Shown here: positions 26,762-30,697 of the stretch, piece after piece | Layout of the letters: each line of letters opens with the position of its first letter | Position numbering within the stretch: the first letter of the stretch is position 1 | Assembly (NCBI RefSeq): GCF_000761215.1 | Contig: NZ_CP009438.1 | Location: 4,729,501 to 4,793,500 of the forward strand | From: Streptomyces glaucescens | GTDB taxonomy: Bacteria; Actinomycetota; Actinomycetes; Streptomycetales; Streptomycetaceae | DNA length: 64,000 nucleotides | Direction: 5' to 3' | Notes under the pieces: generated by a model | Seen by the model: only the letters and a program-made list of their open reading frames with translations | What the model was told of the DNA's origin: nothing | Databases searched by the model: none | Translations under genes and position numbers: made by a program

Positions 26762-27379
26762 TTGGGCCAGGGAGGGGAACCCCGCCGCGCGCAGGCGTAC
26801 GACGGGGAACTGGGCGCGGCCGTCGCGCGGGCCCAGGAAGGTGACGAGGCCGCCTTCGCGGTCGCCTACCGGCTCGTGCAGCCCGGGCTGCTCGGCTATG
26901 TGCGCGGACTCGTCGGCGACGACGCCGAGGACGTGACCTCCGACGCCTGGCTGGAGATCGCCCGCGACCTCGGGCGGTTCAAGGGGGACGGGGCGGGCTT
27001 CCGGGGCTGGACCGCCACCATCGCCCGCCACCGGGCGCTGGACCACCTGCGCCGGCAGCGGGTACGGCCCCGCTCGTCGGCGCTGGAGCAGGACGTGCTC
27101 GACCTGCCGGGCCGGCACACCACACACGACCAGGCCCTGGAGTCCATCTCCACCGAGCAGGCCCTGGAACTCGTGCGGGCACTGCCCCGGGACCAGGCCG
27201 AGGCGGTGCTGCTGAGGGTCGTCGTCGGTCTCGACGGCCCGGCCGCCGCCCGGGTGCTCGGCAAGCGGCCCGGTGCGGTGCGCACCGCCGCCTACCGGGG
27301 GCTGAGACGGCTGGCCCGGCAGCTCGGCGACCGGGGTGTGACGGATGGCGGGCCCAGGACGCTGGGGGAGTCGAAATGA
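26762..27379 (+). CDS. ECF-type RNA polymerase sigma factor (first of a tandem pair)
   Basis: 205 residues. Region 2: AYRLVQPGLLGYVRGLVGD, AEDVTSDAWLEIARDLGRF and GWTATIARHRALDHLRRQ. Region 4: ALPRDQAEAVLLRVVVGL and AARVLGKRPGAVRTAAYRGLRRL. No ATG or GTG fits; a TTG at 26762, six bases after GAGGA, gives the N-terminus expected from the paralogue at 28725. The gene is followed by a membrane protein that is probably its regulator, and the whole pair is duplicated downstream. Confidence 0.88.
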   Translation: MGQGGEPRRAQAYDGELGAAVARAQEGDEAAFAVAYRLVQPGLLGYVRGLVGDDAEDVTSDAWLEIARDLGRFKGDGAGFRGWTATIARHRALDHLRRQRVRPRSSALEQDVLDLPGRHTTHDQALESISTEQALELVRALPRDQAEAVLLRVVVGLDGPAAARVLGKRPGAVRTAAYRGLRRLARQLGDRGVTDGGPRTLGESK

Positions 27380-27449
27380 ACGTCGGCGGGCACGTCGGCA
27401 CGGACGTGTGAGAAGAACGGCGAAATGAACGATGCACGCCGAAATGAAC
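27372..27449 (+). repeat. three direct copies of CGAAATGAAC at the sigma/partner junction
   Basis: The decamer CGAAATGAAC occurs at 27372-27381 (over the sigma stop codon), 27421-27430 and 27440-27449. Each contains ATGA. The first would begin an 11-codon reading frame ending at 27411 and the second a 9-codon one ending at 27454; neither looks like a gene. Confidence 0.7.
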
Positions 27450-27521
27450 AGTGACGACGACAGCGAGGACGACAGACCCGGCCGTGTGCGGGGCACTGGT
27501 CGGACAGGACGGGAAGCGGAC

Positions 27522-28382: not shown

Positions 28383-28724
28383 GGGATCGGCGGGCCGTCG
28401 GCGGGCGGGTCTCCCCGGCCCGCGGACACTCTCCAGGGCCGCCAAGGCAACGGCCGGGGCCGCCACCCCCCACAGGAGAGGCCCCGGCCGTCGCGCGGCA
28501 CGGGCCGCGCGGCGACCCGTACTTCCTACAGCGCCAAGCGGGCGTTTCGTGTCACACCCCGGCTTTCGCGCCCGCACGGACCCCGCCAGGACCCGGTCCG
28601 GGCAAGGTCGCGTCACGAGTTAGTTGCATCTTCTACGTATCTCCCGTGGACATGGACGGGGAACGGTTTCAGGTCGTAACGTGCCATTCGCACCGGACCG
28701 CGGCCAGGGGAAGACAGAGCGATC
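28383..28724 (+). promoter_or_regulatory. intergenic region between the two sigma loci with terminator and candidate ECF promoter
   Basis: No gene is seen in these 342 bases. A perfect 12-bp inverted repeat (28450-28461 with 28480-28491, 18-base loop) probably ends the first locus. Near the second sigma gene, GGAAC (28660-28664) and CGT (28680-28682), 15 bases apart, resemble an ECF-type -35/-10 pair and could allow autoregulation; the spacing is short for this class, so this is tentative. Confidence 0.4.
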
Positions 28725-29447
28725 GTGGCAGACGCCCGCGCGAAAGCGGCGCCGGTGAGGCGCAGAGGGAGTGCGGTGCTGGGGGACGACGCCGAGCTGA
28801 CGGCAGCGGTGCTTGCGGCACAGGACGGGGACGAGACCGCGTTCCGTACCGTGTACCGCGCCGTGCACCCGCGGCTGCTCGGGTACGTGCGGACACTGGT
28901 CGGGGAACCCGACGCCGAGGACGTGGCGTCCGAGGCCTGGCTCCAGATAGCCAGGGACCTCGAACGGTTCAGCGGCGACGCGGACCGCTTCCGCGGCTGG
29001 GCCGCCCGGATCGCCCGCAACCGCGCCCTCGACCACATACGCATGCGCGGCCGCCGCCCCGCCATCGGCGGCGACGAGACCGAACTGAGCGGCAAGCCCG
29101 CCGAGTCCGACACCGCCGGCGAGGCCATCGAGGCGCTGGCCACCGACCGCACCCTCTCCCTGATCGCCGGGCTGCCGCAGGACCAGGCCGAGGCCGTCGT
29201 ACTGCGCGTGGTCGTCGGCCTCGACGCCAAGACCGCCGCCGAGACGCTGGGCAAGCGGGCCGGCGCGGTCCGCACGGCGGCGCACCGCGGGCTGAAGCGG
29301 CTGGCCGAGCTGCTGGGCGAGCCCGGCGGCGATCCGGAATCGACCGGGGTGCTCGACGCCCTGCCCCCACAGCGAGAACCGCGCGGGCGCGCGGTGACGT
29401 CCGCGAGTGTGACGCATATGCGCGCGCGGACGCAGAAGGACATGTGA
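28725..29447 (+). CDS. ECF-type RNA polymerase sigma factor (second of a tandem pair)
   Basis: 240 residues from GTG 28725. Region 2 (TVYRAVHPRLLGYVRTLVG, AEDVASEAWLQIARDLERF, GWAARIARNRALDHIRMRG) and region 4 (GLPQDQAEAVVLRVVVGLD, AETLGKRAGAVRTAAHRGLKRL) closely match the sigma factor at 26762. The C-terminal 40 residues after region 4 are extra and poorly conserved. Its stop overlaps the partner gene by one base (TGATG), so the two are translationally coupled, a common sign of a sigma/anti-sigma pair. Confidence 0.9.
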   Translation: MADARAKAAPVRRRGSAVLGDDAELTAAVLAAQDGDETAFRTVYRAVHPRLLGYVRTLVGEPDAEDVASEAWLQIARDLERFSGDADRFRGWAARIARNRALDHIRMRGRRPAIGGDETELSGKPAESDTAGEAIEALATDRTLSLIAGLPQDQAEAVVLRVVVGLDAKTAAETLGKRAGAVRTAAHRGLKRLAELLGEPGGDPESTGVLDALPPQREPRGRAVTSASVTHMRARTQKDM

Positions 29448-30697
29448 TGGCCGACGAGCAGTACAGGTGGCTGGACCGTGAGACAGCGGAGCGGTTGCTG
29501 CGCGGCGAGTCACCGGATGCCGTCGACCCCGCCGCCCGGCAGCAGGCCGAACGGCTCGCCGAAGCGCTCGGCGCACTGTCCGCCACACCCCCGCCGACCA
29601 GCGAGGAACTCCCCGGCGAGGCCGCCGCGCTGGCCGCCTTCCGCAAGGTCCGCGCCGAGCGCGACGAGGAGCGCGCGGCGCTCGCCGGCCCCGGCCGCGC
29701 CCGTCCGGCCGGCGCCGGGCTGATCCGTGGCGGCGCCCGCGCGGGCGACCGCGGCGCGAACGGCCGCCGTCCGCGCCGGCCCCGCGCGCTGCGCCTCGGA
29801 CTGGCCGCCGCGCTGGCCGCCGGGACGGTCGGCGGAGTCGCCTTCGCGGCCGGAACCGGAGCGCTGCCGACGCCCTTCGACGACCCCCGCCCGCGCCCCG
29901 GCGCCTCGGTGCCGGCCGCCGCTCCCTCGGGCCGCTCGCTGTCCACCCCGTCCCCGGACGGCGCCCACGGCGGGGCCGGCGGCTCGGTCGTGCCCGACGG
30001 GGGCCGGCCCTCGCGGGACGTTGCGGAGGACGACGGCCGCGACCGGGGCCGGGATCCCGAGGACGGGTCCGGCCCGTCCGGCGGGGCGGGCCGGTCGTGG
30101 ACGGAGATCGCGGCGGCCTGCCGGGCCCTGCGGGACGGGCACGGCCTGGATGCCGACCGCCGCCGCACCCTGGCGGGGGTGGCGGGCGGCTCCGCCCGGG
30201 TGGGCCGCTACTGCGACGGCGTGCTGCGGACCACGCACCCCGGCTCCGGGTCCTCCGGCGGCTCGTCCACGTCCGGCCAGGGCCAGGGCCAGGGCCAGGG
30301 CGGCAACGGCGGCAACGGCAACGGCAGCGGCAAGGGCCACAACGGCAACGGCAGCGGCGGCGCGGCCGACAACGGCAACGGCGGCGCGGCCGGCAAGGGC
30401 GAAGGCGATGCCGGCAAGGGCGAAGGCGATGCCGGCAAGGGCAACGGCAACGGCGGAGGCAACGGCCACGCGGGCGGCGGGAACGGTCACTCCGGCGGCA
30501 ACGGAACCGGCAACGGCAACGGCAACGGCAACGGCAACGGGAACGAGAGCGGGAGCGGCAGAGGCAGCGGAAAGGGCGACGGGCAGGGGCGCTCCGGAGC
30601 CGGCCGGCCCGCCGCCGCACAGGACGCGCCCGGTCGCGAGCAACGCGAGGTGCGGACGGCCGAGTCCCCCGAGCCTTCCTTCAGCCCTGCTGAATAA
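29447..30697 (+). CDS. single-pass membrane protein with Gly/Asn-rich tail, probable anti-sigma partner
   Basis: 416 residues. The cytoplasmic segment (about 1-118) opens with RWLDRETAERLLRGESPD and carries EAAALAAFRKVRAERDEE; a membrane helix is at about 118-140. Outside, after a Pro/Ser linker, comes a small domain bounded by two cysteines 29 residues apart (AACRALRDGH ... VGRYCDGV), as in the paralogue at 27522. The last 140 residues are low-complexity Gly/Asn/Ser/Lys repeats, then a Glu/Arg-rich end. Fused to the sigma gene by a TGATG overlap. Confidence 0.75.
   Translation: MADEQYRWLDRETAERLLRGESPDAVDPAARQQAERLAEALGALSATPPPTSEELPGEAAALAAFRKVRAERDEERAALAGPGRARPAGAGLIRGGARAGDRGANGRRPRRPRALRLGLAAALAAGTVGGVAFAAGTGALPTPFDDPRPRPGASVPAAAPSGRSLSTPSPDGAHGGAGGSVVPDGGRPSRDVAEDDGRDRGRDPEDGSGPSGGAGRSWTEIAAACRALRDGHGLDADRRRTLAGVAGGSARVGRYCDGVLRTTHPGSGSSGGSSTSGQGQGQGQGGNGGNGNGSGKGHNGNGSGGAADNGNGGAAGKGEGDAGKGEGDAGKGNGNGGGNGHAGGGNGHSGGNGTGNGNGNGNGNGNESGSGRGSGKGDGQGRSGAGRPAAAQDAPGREQREVRTAESPEPSFSPAE
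30286..30570 (+). repeat. low-complexity GGC/AAC coding repeat
   Basis: Codes for the Gly/Asn/Ser/Lys-rich tail of the protein at 29447. It includes a tandem 21-base repeat GGCAAGGGCGAAGGCGATGCC (30392-30412 and 30413-30433) and a run of GGCAAC hexamers near 30508-30540. Such tracts expand and contract by slippage. Confidence 0.8.

Follow-up and report, generated by a model that had tools for sequence, protein, structure and literature searches.

Two neighbouring sigma factor/membrane partner pairs in Streptomyces glaucescens belong to an actinobacterial family with an extracytoplasmic two-cysteine mini-domain and a probable RsdA-like anti-sigma role

Two neighbouring gene pairs, each encoding an extracytoplasmic function (ECF) sigma factor and a one-helix membrane protein, were found on the plus strand of the Streptomyces glaucescens chromosome in the order sigma1, partner1, sigma2 and partner2. 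They lie within a stretch of 64,000 nucleotides (G000:C1:4729501-4793500), hereafter the window, and the 80 closest loci in a similarity search were all from Streptomyces. An initial annotation of this DNA had placed two such pairs here, which was borne out by the open reading frames (ORFs), by Pfam matches to sigma regions 2 and 4 (r2 and r4) and by the hydrophobic helix of each partner. It had also proposed that the partners represent a new anti-sigma type governed by two cysteines outside the membrane. Our analysis instead points to probable membrane-tethered anti-sigma factors that resemble the known zinc-free RsdA and display a small domain on the outer side. The four genes and the parts of the partners are the following (window coordinates, all on the plus strand).

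26762..27379, plus strand: sigma1, ECF sigma factor with regions 2 and 4 (Pfam Sigma70_r2 3e-13, r4_2 6e-10; a single clade with its Streptomyces orthologues)
27432..28382, likelier start 27522, plus strand: partner1, one-helix membrane protein, probable anti-sigma factor (conservation begins at MGER)
27627..27761, plus strand: cytosolic anti-sigma-like segment of partner1, LLAAAVR..E..AVAAFRAAR (alignments)
27828..27890, plus strand: transmembrane helix of partner1, approximate (hydrophobicity maximum)
28032..28184, plus strand: outside mini-domain of partner1, C-x34-C (cysteine codons 28056-28058 and 28161-28163)
28725..29447, plus strand: sigma2, ECF sigma factor with regions 2 and 4 (Pfam r2 7e-17, r4_2 1e-10)
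29447..30697, plus strand: partner2, one-helix membrane protein, probable anti-sigma factor (sequence and conservation)
29468..29671, plus strand: cytosolic RsdA-like segment of partner2, with helices a1 TAERLLRGE, a2 AERLAEALGALS and a3 PGEAAALAAFRKVRAER (profile-profile match to RsdA with a column-shuffle null; helices in the AlphaFold2 (AF2) model of a homologue)
29789..29857, plus strand: transmembrane helix of partner2, approximate (hydrophobicity maximum)
30095..30241, plus strand: outside mini-domain of partner2, C-x30-C, predicted three-helix fold (cysteine codons 30119-30121 and 30212-30214)
30275..30545, plus strand: low-complexity tail of partner2, rich in Gly, Asn and Gln (encoded by tandem repeats of 6-24 base pairs)

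In a Pfam scan, both sigma factors matched r2 and r4 above cut-off and neither matched r3, the pattern that marks ECF sigma factors; they share 57% identity over 190 residues. Their closest curated NCBIfam model was that of ShbA, the best model for sigma2, with a score far under its cut-off. The start codon of sigma1 is uncertain (TTG 26762 or slightly upstream). Neither partner had a match in the Pfam and NCBIfam scans. Each contains two cysteines and no more, and these lie in the C-terminal part beyond the single hydrophobic helix: C209 and C244 in partner1 (27432 reading), C225 and C256 in partner2. There is no cysteine in the cytosolic part of either protein and therefore no Hx3Cx2C motif, so that the absence of a zinc anti-sigma motif, as annotated initially, was upheld. 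The distance of about 30 residues given there for the cysteines is exact for partner2 (x30), but partner1 has x34. The arginine-rich segment ahead of the helix implies that the partners are oriented N-in, C-out, which would place the cysteines outside. Long low-complexity stalks flank the mini-domain on both sides.

Regarding the conservation of this outside cysteine pair, set around a short helical segment, loss of the cysteines among relatives would have counted against the original proposal; they proved to be conserved and this part of it stands. Across the 80 Streptomyces loci, 73/74 copies of partner2 and 53/58 copies of partner1 retain the pair with unchanged spacing, most exceptions being truncated ORFs. 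A joint alignment of both partner types leaves C, G, A and C invariant. Copies from outside Streptomyces conform to this pattern, and in an alignment of 32 diverse rows the residues C, L, A, G and C were without exception conserved. Both cysteines were present in 103/103 diverse domains, an alignment whose rows had been chosen with the cysteine pattern. As a check less subject to this selection, the cysteine columns of the model were masked; this yielded 155 copies with both cysteines and no substituted cysteine among the detected domains, the other copies being local alignments that were cut short or shifted, in the case of L223 because of a merged tandem copy. The spacing of the cysteines differs among relatives, and the domain alignments revealed no other conserved polar site pointing to a binding pocket. 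The domain can be searched for by the signature C-x-x-[YFWL], L-x3-A-G-G, [VI]-x2-[YF]-C.

A profile of the 47-residue domain retrieved only the two window copies from their own genome at a significant level, whereas among 395 genomes belonging to the class it matched 90, distributed over 33 genera (E <= 0.01, weak matches included). The domain is present in several actinobacterial families, and a phylum-wide search also found it outside the class of the window, in four genomes (G420, G433, G478 and G666), two of which, G420 and G433, contain two tandem copies. Tandem mini-domains were seen at loci L125, L196, L198 and L213; one partner at L125 has three of them, and the same locus comprises a second sigma factor and another domain copy, i.e., two reading frames with cysteine domains. 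At another locus (L223, G433:C6; partner ORF on the plus strand, 1009-1851), two tandem domains have apparently been fused by an internal deletion that left a single cysteine pair. One further candidate locus, L141, matched in part and was set aside as false.

The isolated window domain was modelled by AF2 as three helices (residues 7-19, 25-35 and 38-52 of 59), with a predicted local distance difference test score (pLDDT) >90 in the core and the cysteines in helices 1 and 3. Neither a fold search with this prediction (no PDB match at E <= 0.001) nor a PDB sequence search with the domain profile, which gave weak unrelated matches only, assigned it to a described structure. This mini-domain of about 40 residues is unannotated and previously unnamed.

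For 32 loci from outside Streptomyces, all with a convincing domain, we examined the neighbouring genes for sigma factors. In 24 of them, the gene immediately upstream of the cysteine-domain gene, on the same strand, encodes an ECF sigma factor, and in three more (L126, L136 and L137) sigma factor, membrane helix and cysteine domain are joined in one open frame, which brings adjacency or fusion to 27/32 loci. In these natural fusions, the anti-sigma-like segment is positioned between the sigma factor and the membrane. At one locus (L221) the sigma match is on the opposite strand, and another (L138) ends at a contig edge.

We also placed the sigma factors in a tree of 93 rows, in which, owing to midpoint rooting, 'sister' status is provisional. 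All sigma factors linked to a true cysteine domain formed one clade (98/95). The RsdA-linked SigD sigma factors formed a separate clade adjoining it, in which the window sigma factors were not included, while the RsbN-linked (BldN-type) sigma factors constituted another, more distant clade. Within the Streptomyces clade (96/82), sigma1 and sigma2 each formed one clade, and these are sisters; on the evidence of this tree, the two genes are an old duplication in the Streptomyces lineage. The annotated duplication therefore holds for the sigma factors, whereas the partners are only about 28% identical in the cysteine domain, with little similarity elsewhere by BLAST.

As for the cytosolic part of the partners, an N-terminal pattern is common across families (...ERLL.G...LA.LLAAA.AP...EL.GE.AAVAAFR.AR...), and a PDB sequence search with the cytosolic profile found no convincing chain, only weak unrelated matches. 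For profile comparisons, RsdA relatives were gathered via PF16751 and RsbN relatives via the RsbN of the same genome, and membrane helices were removed beforehand. Against RsdA, the cytosolic partner profile reached a score of 22.3 over 47 columns, with a null of 7.15 +/- 1.31 and a maximum of 10.6 in 100 column shuffles, which suggests a similarity above composition, short of proof of homology. An RsbN-type origin, which we also considered, was unsupported, the profile match being at null level. The partner cytosolic part is, by this profile measure, similar to a known zinc-free anti-sigma factor, and its sigma factors fall near the SigD/RsdA clade; accordingly, the partners are not a wholly new anti-sigma type, and that element of the initial annotation was not sustained. 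A likely anti-sigma role, on the other hand, is favoured by the adjacency across many genera, the natural fusions and the RsdA-like profile.

Among known systems, RsdA (PF16751, the anti-SigD factor of mycobacteria and corynebacteria) shares with the partners a zinc-free cytosolic segment that precedes one membrane helix and, beyond it, an extended disordered region on the outside, as well as a gene adjoining that of a SigD-like ECF sigma factor and the profile match; however, the collected RsdA sequences lack the outside C-x30-C mini-domain, and the partners miss the PF16751 model. RsbN (anti-BldN of Streptomyces, with a class III anti-sigma domain) is also zinc-free and membrane-anchored, and its short helices are, as judged by eye, similarly ordered, but it differs in its null-level match, in the separate clade of its BldN-type sigma factors and in its outside part. 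Class I zinc anti-sigma factors (ZAS/ASDI, such as RsrA, RsiW and RslA) are similarly encoded beside ECF sigma genes and some are membrane-bound; in RsrA the cysteines are involved in redox sensing, while those of the partners lie outside the membrane and form no Hx3Cx2C motif. Finally, the fusions at L126, L136 and L137 resemble ECF52/ECF53-type sigma factors fused to membrane anti-sigma parts in their succession of sigma factor, membrane helix and outside sensor. ECF52/ECF53 have been described with a zinc-finger domain, and ECF52 also with a carbohydrate-binding domain (PMC8999054), whereas the fusions found here have no zinc motif and their outside part is the cysteine mini-domain.

At a homologous pair (L118), sigma factor and partner are in frame across the sigma stop, and we modelled the read-through product, with no claim that such a protein occurs in the cell. 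AF2 gave a mean pLDDT of 74.5 and a predicted template modelling score (pTM) of 0.58, a confident cysteine domain and helices in the anti-sigma segment (block pLDDT 84-91). The sigma part of the model was nearest in shape to sigma factors bound by anti-sigma factors, namely CnrH:CnrY (template modelling score, TM, 0.78) and SigW:RsiW (0.72), as compared with TM values of 0.31-0.44 for sigma factors bound to RNA polymerase; the sigma factors of the E. coli RseA, AlgU:MucA and BldN:RsbN complexes also matched at just 0.43-0.53. This closed shape is suggestive at most of an anti-sigma contact.

Taken together, we consider it fairly probable that the partners are membrane-tethered RsdA-like anti-sigma factors of the sigma factor encoded upstream, freed by regulated proteolysis and equipped with a stapled outside domain. 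In such a system, the zinc-free, three-helix cytosolic N-terminus would hold the sigma factor at the membrane, and one transmembrane helix and a flexible stalk rich in Pro, Ala and Gly would carry the three-helix mini-domain outside, closed by a putative disulfide that would link helices 1 and 3. This domain would most likely be a small binding module engaging something in the cell wall, and envelope perturbation could trigger proteolysis in two steps, by a site-1 and then a site-2 protease, of the type that MarP and Rip1 carry out on RsdA, by which the sigma factor would be released. RsdA is cut by MarP, then by Rip1 and ClpXP, and where tested it acts as an inhibitor (PMC11175481). Two MarP-family proteases and one full-length M50 protease are encoded in the genome.

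Several observations weigh against this interpretation. Even at E values of up to 1, PF16751 had no match among the four window proteins and nine relatives, and at 0.001 it had none in the own genome. For the cytosolic part by itself, hhalign gave the RsdA match a low probability (12.7%), so that the case rests on the shuffle null, and that comparison did not include window partner1, which has the most diverged N-terminus. The partner profile also scored 12.0 against RsbN, where the null maximum was 11.5, with only 8 columns aligned. At three of the 32 loci (L113, L129 and L139), the cysteine-domain membrane protein has no sigma gene beside it, and at L113 and L139 the anti-sigma segment is missing too; hence the mini-domain can occur outside sigma systems and is not strictly an anti-sigma part. 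In addition, AF2 may yield a closed sigma shape without any anti-sigma contact.

With respect to the cysteines, the pair might act as a thiol-disulfide switch, in which the redox state outside, or a reaction with a metal or an electrophile, refolds the mini-domain and frees the sigma factor. The presence of exactly two invariant cysteines per copy and the lack of another conserved polar site that would suggest a binding pocket fit this model, to which we nevertheless assign a low likelihood: the invariant L, A and G and the predicted three-helix fold suit a stapled core, a staple between two helices would tolerate the variable spacing, and the merged domain copies at L223 retain just one pair. 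Moreover, conditions on the outer side of the membrane are oxidising, and there cysteine pairs of small domains are usually structural. Given these oxidising conditions, together with the variable spacing and the conserved positions of the core, a structural disulfide is favoured over a switch, and it would account for the cysteine invariance equally well as a redox sensor. It is just as improbable, in our estimation, that we are dealing with a phylum-wide zinc-free anti-sigma family in which the outside cysteine pair is itself the sensor of an extracellular redox, metal or protein-folding signal; if true, this would represent ECF regulation through an extracytoplasmic thiol switch.

Rather than binding a ligand, the outside domain could also be a mere anchor or spacer in the cell wall, with sensing located elsewhere, in protease access or in the disordered stalk, as has been suggested for RsdA and RsgI. 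The long low-complexity stalks on either side of the domain and the proposal that the disordered outside part of RsdA is an envelope sensor (PMC11175481) are consistent with this role, but neither an invariant five-residue signature across the phylum nor the tandem repetition at L125, L196, L198 and L213 would be expected of a spacer, and we regard it as unlikely, if slightly less so than a thiol switch. Since the evidence for the function of the partners consists of gene pairing and the RsdA-like cytosolic segment, they might conceivably be activators or membrane scaffolds instead of plain inhibitors, as with RskA, for which both roles are reported (PMC7509140). Yet RsdA inhibits where tested, and in the natural fusions the position of the segment between sigma factor and membrane suits tethering, which leaves a small probability for this alternative.

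Regarding the organization of the locus, the start of partner2 overlaps the stop of sigma2 by one base (TGATG), and partner2 is probably translationally coupled to sigma2. The gap between partner1 and sigma2 contains one additional feature:

28450..28517, plus strand: strong hairpins, possible terminator (RNA fold, z = -2.7)

A consensus terminator scan found no T-run terminator in this gap. In a comparison of 81 sequences, non-coding DNA was strongly conserved 5' of sigma2 (28516-28560 and 28620-28696, including CGTAACGTGCC and TGTCACACC among others) and is probably regulatory, while 5' of sigma1 only CTGTGACA was conserved. As the hairpin pair and the conserved non-coding DNA precede sigma2, the two sigma/partner pairs may be separate transcription units. 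Downstream, they are followed by an L,D-transpeptidase gene on the opposite strand and a methylmalonyl-CoA-mutase-family gene. Just upstream of sigma1 are two adjoining related ORFs, 25477-25971 and 26133-26624 (40% identity over 115 residues), the first of which is weakly similar to DUF6278, under cut-off. A weak ECF-sigma-like match was also seen on the minus strand from about 63634 to the right edge of the window (G000:C1:4793134-4793628).

SCO4864 and SCO4866, the putative S. coelicolor orthologues, appear in papers that report expression changes only, and the literature searched made no mention of SCO4865 or SCO4867. In a deletion study of S. venezuelae ECF genes, nothing identifying these sigma/partner genes was seen. 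The partners are unmentioned in the literature searched, which did not cover the main ECF classification, and earlier notice of the sigma group is possible.

Many actinobacterial ECF sigma factors have neighbours without a recognised anti-sigma domain, and one such group is now tied to the SigD/RsdA kind. The same sigma/partner pairing occurs across the actinobacterial phylum, which speaks for a real family with a putative signalling role. Its sensor end gains a defined domain with a searchable signature, and both the anti-sigma role and the question of the cysteines can be tested in Streptomyces.

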